Positions 30,740 through 36,858 of a stretch of 64,000 nt of DNA are shown here, one piece after another. The translations under genes and the position numbers were made by a program. Position 1 is the first letter of the stretch. Each line of letters starts with the position of its first letter. The stretch lies in contig NZ_PDDM01000003.1 of assembly GCF_002914585.1 (NCBI RefSeq), forward strand, positions 1 to 64,000, read 5' to 3'. The notes under the pieces are model-generated. The model worked only from the letters and a program-made list of their open reading frames with translations. It made no database searches and was not told the origin of the DNA. This DNA is from Pseudanabaena sp. BC1403 (GTDB lineage Bacteria; Cyanobacteriota; Cyanobacteriia; Pseudanabaenales; Pseudanabaenaceae).

Positions 30740-33421
30740 TTATAACAAGCCATCCCCATTAAGGGGCTTGGATTTCAAGGGAATATTGATTACACAGGTT
30801 GTTCCTCGTCCAACTTCGCTACTGATGGAAATATGCCCTTGATGTAAATCCACACATTTTTTGACGACAACTAAACCTAGCCCAGTGCCAGAGATAGTTT
30901 TGACATTTTTACCTCGATGAAAGGGCTCAAACAATTGTTTTTGATCTTCTAGTAAAATACCAATCCCTTGATCTTGAACTTTAATTATGAGGTTGCCTGA
31001 TTGGAACTGTAGAGAAAGAGAGATATTCCCACCCTGTGGAGAATATTTAATAGCGTTAGAAAGTAAATTAGAGAGCATCGATCGCAATAGCTTTTCATCC
31101 AGACAAACATGCTGAGACCTTCCTTGACAACTAAAAGTGAGCTGATGCAGATTTCCAGCATTGAGTTGCATCTCTTCGACGAAATGACGGCAATAGGCTT
31201 CTAGTGCTAGAGATTTAGGGTTAAATGCGAGTTTTCCTGTCTCAGCACGATTGATTGTCAAAATGTCATCAAGTAACTGCACCATATTCCTCACTGAATC
31301 TTGGATACGATGTAAGTTACGCAATCTTTTTTCAGTATTATCCCATTCCTGTTGAGAGTTTTCGAGAACCTGAGCTGCTGCTAAAGCTGTGCTCAATGGC
31401 GTGCGAAACTCATGGGATGCCATGGAGAAAAAGCGCGTTTTTAACTCACTTAGTTCTTTCTCTCTTTCAAGAGCTAGCCAAATTTCATCAAGGCGTTTAC
31501 GCTCAGTGATGTCACGGGCATTGACCATAACGCGCAAAGTTGCTGCACTATCAGCAAAGGGCTGACTGATGGCTTCAAGAATTCGCCAAGAACCATCTTG
31601 ATGCCGATGCCGAAATTCGATGGGATTGAGAATTTCGGCTTGATTATTATTGGTAAGGCGATCGCGCAATGTCACTTGCGGAAAACTTTGGGCGATCGGC
31701 AAATCCTCTGGATGAATAAATGCATTTACATTTTCGCCAACAAGCTCAGTGACAGCATAGCCTAAAACTTTTTCGACAGAGGGACTAACATAGCCAATTG
31801 TGCCATCAGGATCGAGGATCATAATAATATCTAAGGCATTTTCGATCAGCGATCGGAAGCGTTCTTCGCTTTGTCGCAGTGCTTGTTCAACTTGCTTACG
31901 CTCAGTAGTGTCACGCTGCACAGCAATCCAATGGGTATACCAACCTTTTGCATTCGCGACAGGCACTAGGCTAAATTCATTCCAAAATTCTGATCCATCT
32001 TTGCAATAGTTAATGACTTCAACCGTGATAGATTCCCATCGGCAAAGTGCATTGCGGACTTTCTTGAGTTGGGCTTGATCCGTTTTTGCTCCTTGCAAAA
32101 TTCGTGGCGTTTTTCCTAACACCTCTTCAGGTTTGTAGCCAGTGATTCTTGTAAAAGCTTCATTTACATAGAGGATTCTGGGACCAGGAGCGTCGATAGA
32201 TTCTGCTTCTGTAACGATTACTGCGTCATTGGTATTGACTACGACGGATTGCAATAGTCGCACCTGTTCTGCTTGTCTTTTTTGTTCGGAAATATCCGCG
32301 ATTACAGCAACGAGTCCGCTGATTTCCCCATTTGAGTCGGGCAAGGGAGCCGCCGAGAAAATGATGTCGATCGCTGAGCCATCTTTTTTTAAGCGAGACA
32401 TTTCTAATCGAGTATAGGTTTTACCTTGAAGAACGCTATTTAGGATGGTGGTACGATCTTCTAATTGTTCATCTAATGGAATTGGACTAGGATGATTAAT
32501 TACCTCATCTTCTTTCCAGCCAAACATCTGTTCAGCCGCAGGATTCCAGATTTTAACTCTCCCTTCTAAATCCAGCATAAAAATTGCACGGGGAGAAGCA
32601 CTGACTAGAGCTTGGAGGGTTTCATTGGTATGGCGCAGGGCAACTTCCGTACGCTGCCGTTCTGAAATCTCATCTCGTAGGGAAGCATTAACATTAGCAA
32701 GTTCGATGGTACGCTGTTGAACTCGCAGTTCGAGTTGCATATTGAGATGTTGAAGTTGCTTATAAAGCTCTGATTGTTGAATAGCGATCGCTACCTGAGT
32801 AGCGAGTTGCTTCATTAGCTCCACTTCCCAGTCTTCCCATTGGCGTGGATGATTGCATTGATGCGCGATCAATAATCCCCAGAGATAGGGATGAGAAGTT
32901 TCTGACTCATTCCCTTTGCGATTTTCTTGAATAATTGGTACTACTAGTTTAGCTTGAACTCCAAACTGTTTTACAAAATCAGCAAGACACAGTTCTACAT
33001 CAGCCTGCATAACGTTAGCAATGGAGCGAGCTTTTCCTAAAGAGTAAGCTTGATGATATTGTTGAGGGAAAACTTCTTCGGGAAAGACTTGACCTAAAAT
33101 ACTGGGGTAGGCTGGTAAGACAGTTTCATGGATAGCGCTACCAGTGCCATCGTCCCATAGGCGATAAATTAGGACGCGATCTGCTTGCAAAAAGAGTTGG
33201 ACTTCTTTGACTGTGGTGGCAAGGACTTCATCAAGATTGAGGGATTGGCGAATTTGGTGAGCAATTTGTGTAACCAGTCTTTCGCGATCGCTCTGCTGTC
33301 GCAATAATTTTTCTGTACGACGACGATTTCCTTCTCTTGTAAAAAAAAGGAAGCCTACCAATAGGATGAAAAGGCTAAGGCAAATTGCGATCGCATAAAA
33401 ACTGGTCATACTCCCAACCAT
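30740..33421 (-). CDS. ccaS: CcaS-like green/red cyanobacteriochrome kinase
   Basis: An 893-residue membrane kinase. One transmembrane helix is at 8-27, then a GAF (45-222) with Cys145-Leu146 in 'ELCLADFVKQFG', the CL-type chromophore site of CcaS. Also CcaS-like are 'DDGTGSAI', 'EEVFPQQYHQAY' and the long insert before 'PYLWGLLIAHQC'. Three PAS domains (270-380, 388-508, 515-642) precede HisKA (His670, ASHEFRTPL) and HATPase_c. In Synechocystis and Nostoc, CcaS is a phycocyanobilin-binding green/red photosensor that phosphorylates CcaR under green light. The adjacent cpcL and ccaR genes support this. There are two possible ATG starts 12 bp apart (33421, 33409). Confidence 0.9.
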   Translation of the reverse strand: MVGSMTSFYAIAICLSLFILLVGFLFFTREGNRRRTEKLLRQQSDRERLVTQIAHQIRQSLNLDEVLATTVKEVQLFLQADRVLIYRLWDDGTGSAIHETVLPAYPSILGQVFPEEVFPQQYHQAYSLGKARSIANVMQADVELCLADFVKQFGVQAKLVVPIIQENRKGNESETSHPYLWGLLIAHQCNHPRQWEDWEVELMKQLATQVAIAIQQSELYKQLQHLNMQLELRVQQRTIELANVNASLRDEISERQRTEVALRHTNETLQALVSASPRAIFMLDLEGRVKIWNPAAEQMFGWKEDEVINHPSPIPLDEQLEDRTTILNSVLQGKTYTRLEMSRLKKDGSAIDIIFSAAPLPDSNGEISGLVAVIADISEQKRQAEQVRLLQSVVVNTNDAVIVTEAESIDAPGPRILYVNEAFTRITGYKPEEVLGKTPRILQGAKTDQAQLKKVRNALCRWESITVEVINYCKDGSEFWNEFSLVPVANAKGWYTHWIAVQRDTTERKQVEQALRQSEERFRSLIENALDIIMILDPDGTIGYVSPSVEKVLGYAVTELVGENVNAFIHPEDLPIAQSFPQVTLRDRLTNNNQAEILNPIEFRHRHQDGSWRILEAISQPFADSAATLRVMVNARDITERKRLDEIWLALEREKELSELKTRFFSMASHEFRTPLSTALAAAQVLENSQQEWDNTEKRLRNLHRIQDSVRNMVQLLDDILTINRAETGKLAFNPKSLALEAYCRHFVEEMQLNAGNLHQLTFSCQGRSQHVCLDEKLLRSMLSNLLSNAIKYSPQGGNISLSLQFQSGNLIIKVQDQGIGILLEDQKQLFEPFHRGKNVKTISGTGLGLVVVKKCVDLHQGHISISSEVGRGTTCVINIPLKSKPLNGDGLL

Positions 33422-33627: not shown

Positions 33628-34365
33628 TTACAACCCAATTAAAACTCCCAATAGCAATACACCAACAAAAGCAGCACCAGCATAGGTAATACCTGCACCA
33701 ATTTTGCTAACAATAGCAGGTGGATTCTTTTGCCATTCCCAACGGACATAATCCAATCTAGCCGCGCCTTTATTGCCTTTAAAGACTTGTTTAGGCATAC
33801 GATCTCGATAGTCAGCACCATAACGAGCAGTATGAGCAAAGGTGACTTCGCCCTTGGTCTGCTTAGCCAAGATACGACGACGTTGATAGGGAACAACACT
33901 ATCACCAAAGTTACTGAGATATTCTTCGCTACTGAGCAACTCATCAACAAAAGCTTGGATGCCCTTGGTCGCAATCACAATTGACCATGCAATCTTTTCG
34001 CGATCGCTATAGACATTACGACCAAGAATTCGCTGGATACAAATCTCGGCAAAGCGATAGTTATTATTACTATCAAAAGTCAATCGTCTGAAGGAATCAG
34101 ATAATACCAAGCCACGAATGAATCCTCTAACTGTAATTTGTCCTGCTCGCAGCTGAGACTCTAGATTTACTTGACGATGGCTTTCTAGCATCTGCTGTTC
34201 ATTGCAGATTTGACGATAGGCGGCGCTGATCAACAAATCCATCTCAAAGCCAGATAGCAGATTGTCGGTGCTATAAATCCGAGGTTGCTCATCACCTGCG
34301 ACTTCAAATCCAGCCACGCGCTGATTTTGGGATAAAGGTTTGTACTCTAACAATGGAAGCGACAT
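33628..34365 (-). CDS. cpcL: Membrane-anchored rod linker CpcL (CpcG2)
   Basis: A 245-residue phycobilisome rod-core-type linker. The N-terminus 'SLPLLEYKPLSQNQRV' is the CpcG signature, the PBS linker domain spans about 30-165, and residues 219-245 form a hydrophobic C-terminal helix. That helix distinguishes CpcL from CpcG1: it anchors a core-less rod of phycocyanin to the thylakoid, where it feeds photosystem I and associates with NDH-1. AGGAG precedes the ATG by 9 bp. It is co-directional with the rod linker 71 bp upstream and probably transcribed from the G-box promoter region. Confidence 0.95.
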   Translation of the reverse strand: MSLPLLEYKPLSQNQRVAGFEVAGDEQPRIYSTDNLLSGFEMDLLISAAYRQICNEQQMLESHRQVNLESQLRAGQITVRGFIRGLVLSDSFRRLTFDSNNNYRFAEICIQRILGRNVYSDREKIAWSIVIATKGIQAFVDELLSSEEYLSNFGDSVVPYQRRRILAKQTKGEVTFAHTARYGADYRDRMPKQVFKGNKGAARLDYVRWEWQKNPPAIVSKIGAGITYAGAAFVGVLLLGVLIGL

Positions 34366-34436: not shown

Positions 34437-35498
34437 TTAACTATTGAAAACGCGGCTGCGCCATTTGTTCAATCGCGCATCACCGATCGAGGCATATCTC
34501 CGCGCATCGGCAATCTGAGCTTGCAGGTTTGCAATCTGTTTAATCTGATTGTCTGACTGTTGTAATAAGGAGTCAGAGGCATCTCCTTGAACTGAGACGA
34601 CCAAAGGTTGCCAAGAATTTTTGAGATAAGATGCACCAATAGAAGCCGCTGGACGAAGATCGGCAAGTTGTGTTTGCAAACTTTCGATAATGAGATCTTG
34701 ATCGAGTAGAGTTTGGCGTAATGCTTGTTCGGCAGCAAACCTTGCCGATGTCCCCCAAGAATCGGCTTGTCCGATACCTGAGACTTTAGGCTTAAAGACT
34801 TCAGCAAGAATGGCAGCAGTATCACTAACTTTGAGCTTGCCGTAGGGAGCAGAAGATGCGCCCTTGAGTGGTGCGATCGCGCTTGGACGATTTCGGAAAA
34901 TACAACTATTCAGTCGAAAGCGATTTTGATGAGTTGGATCTTTATCGCTGCTAGCTGATCCGCGCAAAAGCTGAAACATATGCGTAAATCCCACCATTTT
35001 CTTCCCCATTTGGGATTTATGCCCACGATAGTAAGGAACGGTATCTTCGCCAAAAGCATGATGATATTCATCGCTATCGATGTAATTATTGATTTCCATC
35101 TCAAACCCACCGCGATCGAGTAACTGAGCATGATCAGCCATCTCTTCAGCACTTTCAGGAGCACGACCGAGCAAATGTTTGAAGTTGAGTTCAATTAATC
35201 GCATTCGTGGACATGGCTCAAAAAATCTAGCGCGATACTGATCCGATAGGGCAATCTGACGCACAAATTCGCGTACAGAGAGTTCTCCCTGTCTAAGTTG
35301 AGATTCGGCAACAAGCAACCGTTCGCTTTCCATTAAATAGGCATTGCCAAGTACTTGGCGATAGGCGGCACGAATAACTAAATCGACCTCAGATTCGGAA
35401 TGATTTTGCCAAAGTTGGATTGGTTCTGTTTCATCGAATCGACTAACCCCAAGGTTTGCTTCTGGGTTAACCAATGGATTAATAAAAGTACTGACCAT
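34437..35498 (-). CDS. Phycobilisome rod linker with repeated C-terminal motif
   Basis: A 353-residue linker. The PBS linker domain (about 25-175) has 'VIRAAYRQVLGN', 'LIELNFKHLLGRAP' and 'DTVPYYRG', closest in my memory to CpcC-type rod linkers. Instead of a CpcD domain, the C-terminal ~100 residues hold two copies of a motif: 274-296 (LQTQLADLRPAASIG, then YLKNSW) and 325-347 (LQAQIADARRYASIG, then RLNKW), each starting with a short coiled coil. In Nostoc punctiforme the CcaR-controlled operon carries a cpeC linker in this place, so it may be a phycoerythrin or phycocyanin linker. First gene of the linker-cpcL operon. Confidence 0.85.
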   Translation of the reverse strand: MVSTFINPLVNPEANLGVSRFDETEPIQLWQNHSESEVDLVIRAAYRQVLGNAYLMESERLLVAESQLRQGELSVREFVRQIALSDQYRARFFEPCPRMRLIELNFKHLLGRAPESAEEMADHAQLLDRGGFEMEINNYIDSDEYHHAFGEDTVPYYRGHKSQMGKKMVGFTHMFQLLRGSASSDKDPTHQNRFRLNSCIFRNRPSAIAPLKGASSAPYGKLKVSDTAAILAEVFKPKVSGIGQADSWGTSARFAAEQALRQTLLDQDLIIESLQTQLADLRPAASIGASYLKNSWQPLVVSVQGDASDSLLQQSDNQIKQIANLQAQIADARRYASIGDARLNKWRSRVFNS

Positions 35499-35680
35499 GT
35501 TAAATATCTTCTCGGAATAAAAATGGATTCTAATGTTAAATGAATATAATTAAAGGGAGTAGAAGAATTAAACCTGTCTATCAAGTATTGTGCGAAAAAT
35601 CGAAGTGATATAAAAACAATCACTGTTTTCTCACGATGAATCTAAATAATCCCATACCAAAAGTAAGGAAACTAGTTAGA

Positions 35681-35702
35681 GAATTGTAAAGAAAACGGAA
35701 AG
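35681..35702 (-). promoter_or_regulatory. CcaR G-box-like tandem site
   Basis: On the minus strand the 22 bp read as two abutting 11-mers, CTTTCCGTTTT and CTTTACAATTC. Each matches the G-box half-site recalled for Synechocystis CcaR (CTTTNCNATTT) at 10 of 11 positions counting N as a match. Orientation is toward the rod linker and cpcL, 183 bp upstream of the linker start codon. The direct-repeat spacing of 11 bp suits an OmpR-family dimer. Confidence 0.7.
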
Positions 35703-35790
35703 ATTGATTCTAGGCAATAAATCTTGATGTTCTGTTACATTTATTTGGGTTTACAAGTCGCAATCTGTGATATATAGCTGCCGCCACTCT

Positions 35791-35847
35791 CCAAAACCCA
35801 AGAAATAATGGCGGCGCTTCGCACTGCGATTATTTCTTGGGTTTTGG
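35791..35847. repeat. Fold-back hairpin upstream of ccaR
   Basis: Arms begin CCAAAACCCAAGAAATAATG and close with the complement. The inner core GGCGGCGC-TTC-GCACTGCG contains mismatches, unlike most other copies, so this copy looks older. Confidence 0.6.
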
Positions 35848-35918
35848 AATCGTAATTTTGGTAACAAATTTTTGTAGAATTAGAGAAGTCTGATCGCATC
35901 TCCAAAAAAATTCATCCT

Positions 35919-36608
35919 ATGAGGATTCTTCTAGTTGAAGATGATATCCGCCTTGCCGAAACCTTGGCTGAAGCGCTAACCGATGAGCGCTATGTTGTGG
36001 ATATTGCCGCTGATGGTGAAACTGGCTGGCATCAAGCTCAGTCCCTAGATTACGATCTGATGCTTTTGGATTTAATGTTGCCAGAACTGGATGGTATTAG
36101 TCTCTGCCATCGGTTGCGATCCCATGGCTACAGCTTACCAATCTTGATGCTTACTGCTTGCGACACGATCGATCATGAAATTAACGGGCTAGACGTGGGA
36201 GCCGATGATTATATTGTTAAGCCTGTTGATTTACAAAAGCTATTTGCAAGGATTCGCGCCCTATTACGTCGTGGTAGTCAAATCGCATCGCCAGTCTTGG
36301 AGTGGGGTGAACTGTATCTTAATCCAAGCACTTGCGAAGTTGGCTATGGTGAAAATCCTATCCATTTAACGCCCAAGGAATATTCTCTTTTAGAATTGCT
36401 ACTTCGCAATGGAAGAAGGGTATTGAGCCGTAGTGTCATGATCGAGCATGTTTGGTCTTTGGAGTCACCGCCAGAGGAGCATACCGTGAAGGTGCATATT
36501 CGAGGTTTGCGTCAAAAGATGAAAGCCGCAGGTGCTAACGAAGATTTAATTGAGACAGTTCATAGTATGGGCTACCGTCTAAATCGGAATTACAGTAAAC
36601 TTCGCTAA
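35919..36608 (+). CDS. ccaR: CcaR-like OmpR-family response regulator
   Basis: A 229-residue regulator. The receiver (1-115) has acidic Glu7-Asp8-Asp9 and acceptor Asp51 ('LLDLMLPELDG'), followed by a winged-helix DNA-binding domain (125-225) with 'LTPKEYSLLELLLRNGRRVL' and 'HTVKVHIRGLRQKMKAAG'. Segments such as 'ESPPEE' and 'ETVHSMGYRL' closely match CcaR of Synechocystis. Its neighbours are ccaS, cpcL and a rod linker, as in other CcaS/CcaR loci, so it most likely activates the divergent linker-cpcL operon when phosphorylated in green light. Confidence 0.92.
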   Translation: MRILLVEDDIRLAETLAEALTDERYVVDIAADGETGWHQAQSLDYDLMLLDLMLPELDGISLCHRLRSHGYSLPILMLTACDTIDHEINGLDVGADDYIVKPVDLQKLFARIRALLRRGSQIASPVLEWGELYLNPSTCEVGYGENPIHLTPKEYSLLELLLRNGRRVLSRSVMIEHVWSLESPPEEHTVKVHIRGLRQKMKAAGANEDLIETVHSMGYRLNRNYSKLR

Positions 36609-36661
36609 AACCTAAAAACCTGTACCGCTTGCTTAGCTGGCGGTACAGGTTTTTAGGTTTT
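36607..36661 (+). terminator. Terminator after ccaR
   Basis: Perfect 22-base arms (AAAACCTAAAAACCTGTACC left) around an 11-base loop, immediately overlapping the ccaR stop codon and ending in TTTT. Confidence 0.8.
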
Positions 36662-36692
36662 ATAGTTGCAGTCACTCGTCTTAGGACAAATC

Positions 36693-36795
36693 ATACCAAA
36701 ACACAAAATGGCTACGCCATTTTGTGTTTTTAAAACCCTTACTGGGTTTAGTTTTTAATTCACAGAAGTGTGGCAAAACTTTTGTGAATAGGATA
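36693..36795 (+). repeat. Triple-hairpin repeat, copy D
   Basis: Begins ATACCAAAACACAAAATGG. The right end is altered to TGTGAATAGGATAT and merges with the fold-back hairpin at 36784-36846. Confidence 0.8.
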
Positions 36796-36846
36796 TAAAT
36801 TGATTGGCGGCGCTTCGCGCCGCCAATCAATTTATATCCTATTCAC
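36784..36846. terminator. Fold-back hairpin copying repeat D's end
   Basis: Two perfect 30-base arms around TTC with core GGCGGCGC-TTC-GCGCCGCC. The left arm starts inside the right end of triple-hairpin repeat D, so the right arm is an inverted copy of it. It ends 13 bp before the stop of the substrate-binding protein gene on the minus strand and can serve as its terminator. Confidence 0.7.
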
Positions 36847-36858
36847 ACTTGGCGACTG

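Follow-up and report, generated by a model that had tools for sequence, protein, structure and literature searches.

A predicted CcaR operator (G-box) upstream of the linker-cpcL-ccaS operon of Pseudanabaena sp. BC1403, within a conserved promoter region

The closest described counterpart of the site considered here is the G-box of the Synechocystis PCC 6803 cpcG2 (cpcL) promoter, which, like ours, consists of tandem 11-bp repeats. In PCC 6803, cpcL, ccaR and ccaS lie in one cluster (PMC8256508, PMC12461855). When its 22-bp G-box was inserted between promoter and reporter in E. coli carrying CcaS/CcaR, transcript levels under red and green light differed 36.2-fold (PMC8256508). Clusters uniting kinase, regulator and phycobilisome operon are also found in Nostoc punctiforme, Geminocystis and Leptolyngbya PCC 6406, which differ in operon content and in which phycoerythrin or phycoerythrocyanin genes are controlled as well (PMC12461855). 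The L-box of CA3, bound by RcaC, is likewise a light-controlled response-regulator site at phycobilisome promoters (PMC8256508), but it has another regulator and another motif. The locus studied here lies in a stretch of 64,000 nucleotides from Pseudanabaena sp. BC1403 (contig NZ_PDDM01000003.1, positions 1 to 64,000), all of which we call the window. As in PCC 6803 and the other systems, kinase, regulator and phycobilisome operon are found together in one cluster; unlike PCC 6803, a rod linker gene precedes cpcL, and in contrast to CA3 a single regulator of 229 aa adjoins the operon.

The site is a 22-mer at 35681-35702 on the minus strand, composed of two abutting 11-bp direct repeats, CTTTCCGTTTT CTTTACAATTC, just where the preliminary description had placed them. 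Each 11-mer had been credited with 10 of 11 matches to the half-site consensus CTTTNCNATTT, taken here as the CcaR half-site. The figure stands if the two N positions are counted as matches; over specified positions the agreement is 8/9 and 8/9, that is, 2 mismatches in the 18 specified positions of the tandem, one per half. The further remark that no other perfect tandem was noticed in the window needs amending, as the site is the sole window match at up to 3 mismatches but, with a mismatch in each half, is not itself perfect.

How much weight can a match of this kind bear? The consensus, at up to 3 mismatches, occurs at least once in 23 of 100 shuffled windows, and over the whole genome there are 42 such places, against 14 for a reversed-pattern control. 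For that reason a match to the degenerate consensus is no strong evidence by itself, and we rejected it as proof. The PCC 6803 G-box, in the sequence printed in PMC8256508, served as a second reference. To that box the site is identical at 19 of 22 bases, the 3 mismatches falling at positions 8 (T for A), 18 (A for G) and 22 (C for T), and a scan of the 5.5-Mb genome found 35681-35702 to be the only place within 3 mismatches of it. A 61-bp promoter model, R2, whose 16 source loci all lie outside the genus, finds the site at E=1.5e-12 in the window and at E=1.3e-10 in the whole genome, where the next match has an E-value of 0.2. Given this one strong match, CcaR probably has one main target, as judged by promoter architecture.

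The preliminary description had the box facing a linker-cpcL operon and had predicted a response regulator and a CcaS-like kinase nearby, and domain and homology searches bear out the orientation and all of these neighbours. The first gene of the operon, 182 bases from the box to its start codon, encodes a phycobilisome rod linker of 353 aa (34437-35498, minus strand, PF00427), whose best single-rod-linker matches in the PDB are phycocyanin-associated. It is followed by cpcL (33628-34365, minus strand, PF00427), encoding a cpcG2-type, photosystem I-associated linker of 245 aa, residues 1-242 of which align to the CpcL chain 8hfq_n at E=2e-85. Next comes a ccaS-like sensor kinase gene (30740-33421, minus strand) with GAF, three PAS, HisKA and HATPase domains. 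Divergent from the operon lies the cognate ccaR (35919-36608, plus strand), coding for an OmpR/PhoB-type response regulator with PF00072 and PF00486 domains.

The kinase merits closer comparison. Aligned to RcaE chains, its GAF domain keeps the Cys-Leu pair as well as the Glu and Lys of the protochromic triad, and these residues are as expected for a green/red sensor. A Leu adjoining the Cys is typical of both CcaS and RcaE (PMC9415938), and because RcaE has the same features, they do not separate the two kinds of sensor. The best solved-structure matches to the GAF domain are two RcaE-type sequences, and no chain named CcaS was found among the structure matches. We chose CcaS over RcaE because of the neighbouring regulator and the gene order. 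The RcaC of the RcaE-RcaF-RcaC system of CA3 is larger and has more domains, whereas the regulator adjoining the operon at this locus has one receiver and one DNA-binding domain. The co-presence of ccaS and cpcL, which marks a CA1 cluster (PMC9415938), is found here. Very probably, 35681-35702 serves the linker-cpcL-ccaS operon as its CcaR operator (G-box), in a CA1-like CcaS/CcaR system activated by green light. The assignment is based on sequence, conservation, orientation, fixed spacing and operon association; we infer CcaR binding, its two-dimer form, light dependence and the start site.

Within the genus, CcaR orthologues of at least 88% identity occur in 11 of 23 genomes, our own included. 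Promoter model R1, for which the genus supplied 5 of the 20 loci, was searched against all 26 genus genomes; it matched at E<=1.3e-14 in 11, the 5 contributors among them, and these are exactly the genomes with CcaR of at least 88% in protein searches that covered all 26. Among the other 15, one genome (G016) gave a partial match at 1.9e-7 and another (G017) a weak one at 7.9e-4, and the rest gave nothing below 0.03. The weakly matched box of G017, a genome lacking CcaR of at least 88%, ends like the paralogue type discussed below. The operator itself carries a fixed lineage difference: position 8 of the first half-site is T in 11/11 genus loci and A in 22/22 others. Given this T in place of A, the affinity for CcaR may differ in the genus. 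Green-light control of the antenna operon would be a firm prediction for the genus.

Does the box keep company with CcaR beyond the genus? The 1.5 kb upstream of each of 58 distinct CcaR-like loci, drawn from the genus and a phylum sample, was scanned for the PCC 6803 box, with up to 3 mismatches allowed. Where CcaR identity was at least 66%, the box was upstream in 30 of 35 loci, every time oriented away from ccaR; below 66% it was upstream in none of 23. Across the phylum sample of 386 genomes, a box match at the same threshold was present in 22 of the 24 with CcaR of at least 66% and in 19 of the 362 others, while a reversed-pattern control matched in 36 of the 386 (hand count). The contigs of named relatives returned 80 loci, most of them holding other regulators, as the seeds were generic; a locus outside the 58, from Trichormus sp. 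M33_DOE_039 (L078, CcaR 81%), has the full module.

The genes beyond the box were surveyed in 35 loci by taking the longest ORF starting within 900 bp past it. By BLAST this was a linker or CpcL in 25, and in 7 it was as long as a phycobiliprotein beta subunit (a family search was run on 2 of them, and 3 more look alike on inspection). At one locus (L055) the ORF is putatively CpeR-like, a family search giving no match, and at two (L069 and L021) it was neither linker or CpcL, nor beta-length, nor CpeR-like. The box is conserved with CcaR orthologues in many families and is oriented toward phycobilisome genes, and the operator accompanies several kinds of them: linkers, cpcL and phycobiliprotein beta. 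As a representative of a known kind the site is ordinary, with strong comparative support. Operon content varies, as additional linker genes stand between box and cpcL at L039, L040 and L049.

The five loci of the 35 in which the upstream scan found no box at up to 3 mismatches (L017, L052, L060, L069 and L076) are of several sorts. For L017 the box is elsewhere in the same genome, together with the operon. The regulator of L052 is 279 bases from a contig end, and the box is on another contig, before linkers and ccaS. L060 has a distal box with 5 mismatches in unchanged register, and L076 is a second CcaR-like copy, of 67% identity, with no box. L069 (genome G042, CcaR 66%) has no upstream box; a divergent box with 4 mismatches lies downstream of its regulator gene and precedes a 95-aa DUF1816 gene. 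At L079 (CcaR 67%, outside the 58), too, no box is present upstream, and the one found downstream of the regulator gene is divergent with 4 mismatches, so that L069 and L079 may represent a variant layout. The coordinates of the downstream divergent boxes at two CcaR-like loci (66-67%) are L204:3350-3371 (minus strand) and L079:3298-3319 (plus strand); they are of the type CTT/TTA-CCCGATTT CTTC-CGAT.

Is the box attached to the regulator gene or to the operon? Genome G001 has its ccaR on contig C142, where the 14 kb around the gene hold no box, and a box with 0 mismatches to the genus pattern is on contig C112, before a linker, a 112-aa ORF, cpcL and ccaS; the conserved upstream element described below is there too. 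The 112-aa ORF is putatively CpeR-like and found no match in a family search. The 1067 bases that precede the box in genome G365 contain no ccaR. Because of these two genomes, and barring assembly errors, the module appears to travel with the operon and not with ccaR; assembly or binning errors could in principle account for both separations.

Another departure is found in G016, a genome 76% complete, where a single half-site, CTTTGCAATTT, matching the consensus at 11/11, replaces the tandem in the linker-operon promoter. The upstream element, the proximal region and the -10 are retained. This reduced promoter lies at L220 (G016:C472), about 1500-1580 on the minus strand. We had considered G016 as proof of joint loss of CcaR and box, and dropped it because the genome is 76% complete, the search of that assembly found no ccaR, and a ccaS fragment is present that runs to a contig end.

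What lies around the 22-mer? A set of 20 loci, less than 85% identical to one another, was aligned without gaps on the distal box, as we call the 22-mer. Box-bearing contigs (L198 and L203) stood in for L017 and L052 here and in the ORF survey; L060 belongs to the 20-locus set and to model R2, L198 takes its place in model R1, and L021, L069, L076 and L079 are in neither model. Conservation is strong from about -40 to +60 and near null by about -90 and +82, which suggests a promoter region conserved over about 100 bp, with the 22-mer as its distal part.

Scanning the alignment with a half-site matrix derived from the distal box gave, after the distal positions themselves, the highest scores at +23 and +34, a separation of 11 bp once more; an inverted position at -31 followed closely. 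The pair corresponds in the window to a degenerate tandem, CTAACTAGTTT CCTTACTTTTG, at 35658-35679 on the minus strand, a candidate site for a second CcaR dimer, which is offset downstream by 23 bp from the distal box (start to start), lies in the -35 region and has 7 mismatches in 18 to the consensus. Column permutation gives P of about 1e-4 for the pair, and tests of single offsets give P=0.0375 and 0.026. The proximal box is a weak one, as its half-site scores are low, with averages near or below zero log-odds (-1.3 and -3.3, or 2.5 and 0.2 with softer counts).

Downstream, at fixed spacing from the distal box, is a predicted extended -10, TG G GATTAT (35646-35654, minus strand, hexamer 35651-35646). 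The hexamer is 29 bp past the box; its A at position 2 and T at position 6 are found in 20/20 loci, and the T and G of the extension in 17/20 and 16/20. A sigma-70 pair scan of 35480-35940 found none, where shuffles lead one to expect 2.0. On the other side, 18-39 bp upstream of the distal box (35720-35741, minus strand), the 20 loci share a conserved element with a pattern of about TTnCnnAAnnTnAAnATTT, which carries 7.9 and 9.5 bits of information per 11 bp, where the null averages 1.1. An inverted half-site within it (P=0.012) is a lead only.

Such a layout would be expected of a promoter in which the -35 gives way to a second CcaR dimer. We would picture a head-to-tail CcaR dimer on the distal box and a second dimer probably on the degenerate proximal box, in place of a -35 and beside the extended -10, with RNA polymerase starting at about 35639 on the minus strand. 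Green-light induction may raise the CcaS sensor too, since ccaS follows cpcL on the same strand. The pho box of E. coli PhoB promoters, also built of tandem 11-bp repeats, would resemble this layout. As there, the proximal pair would replace the -35, and between the end of its last 7-mer core and the -10 there are 10 bp; the differences are a 12-bp step between pairs, another half-site, and a contact between CcaR and sigma that is putative.

A wider proposal, for which we see about an even chance, is that CcaR promoters across cyanobacteria have a fixed composite layout of some 100 bp, in which upstream element, strong distal G-box, degenerate proximal box and extended -10 follow one another at constant spacing and two dimers stand in series, the proximal one replacing the -35; the upstream element possibly includes an inverted half-site. 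If so, the published 22-bp G-box is only the anchoring half of the operator. The layout bears on how CcaR activates, which is relevant to the CcaS/CcaR promoter in wide optogenetic use; as late as 2019 the CcaR binding region of that promoter was called putative (PMC6629627). The composite architecture would be the new part of this account, though literature support for its novelty is weak: no account of a second box or of a fixed -10 gap was found in the literature searched, most subscription papers lying outside its reach.

Three other readings of the site were weighed. The one that survives best, though very unlikely, is that a paralogous OmpR-type regulator uses the box in place of CcaR. 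Similar boxes of the CTTTCCGAGTTCTTTACTTTTT type are indeed present at L200:5438-5459, L201:2997-3018 and L202:4383-4404, near CcaR paralogues of 59-63% identity that have separate histidine kinases, and for this reason the half-site code seems common to related regulators. Against it, the box has no counterpart within 3 mismatches elsewhere in our own genome, and the genus promoter tracks CcaR, while regulators of about 60% identity are found in 22 of 23 genomes, box or no box. The CTTTCCGAGTTCTTTACTTTTT-type boxes also appear, by eye, without the rest of the module, and at L037 model R2 covers just positions 2-26 of its 61. They possibly mark a sister regulon whose half-site code is almost identical. 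An iron-dependent dioxygenase gene lies near such a box at L201, and at L200 there is a weak PepSY_TM match, below the family cut-off.

Less likely still is that the box mainly serves ccaR, by autoregulation or repression, and not the linker operon. It does occupy a shared intergenic region in 30 loci, but its orientation and the fixed 29-bp gap to the conserved -10 point to the operon, and G001 and G365, as described, have the box with the operon or with no ccaR before it. That the box is a chance match in AT-rich intergenic DNA is hardly credible, for while the degenerate consensus is common in the genome and in shuffled windows, the match to the independent model R2 and the cross-family conservation with CcaR speak against it.

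Around the predicted CcaR operator, long hairpins were also observed at 35790-35848, in the spacer between box and ccaR, and at 36606-36662 and 36783-36847, after ccaR, with arms of 28-31 nt that are 89-100% complementary. In L220 a hairpin that looks similar by eye precedes the operon.
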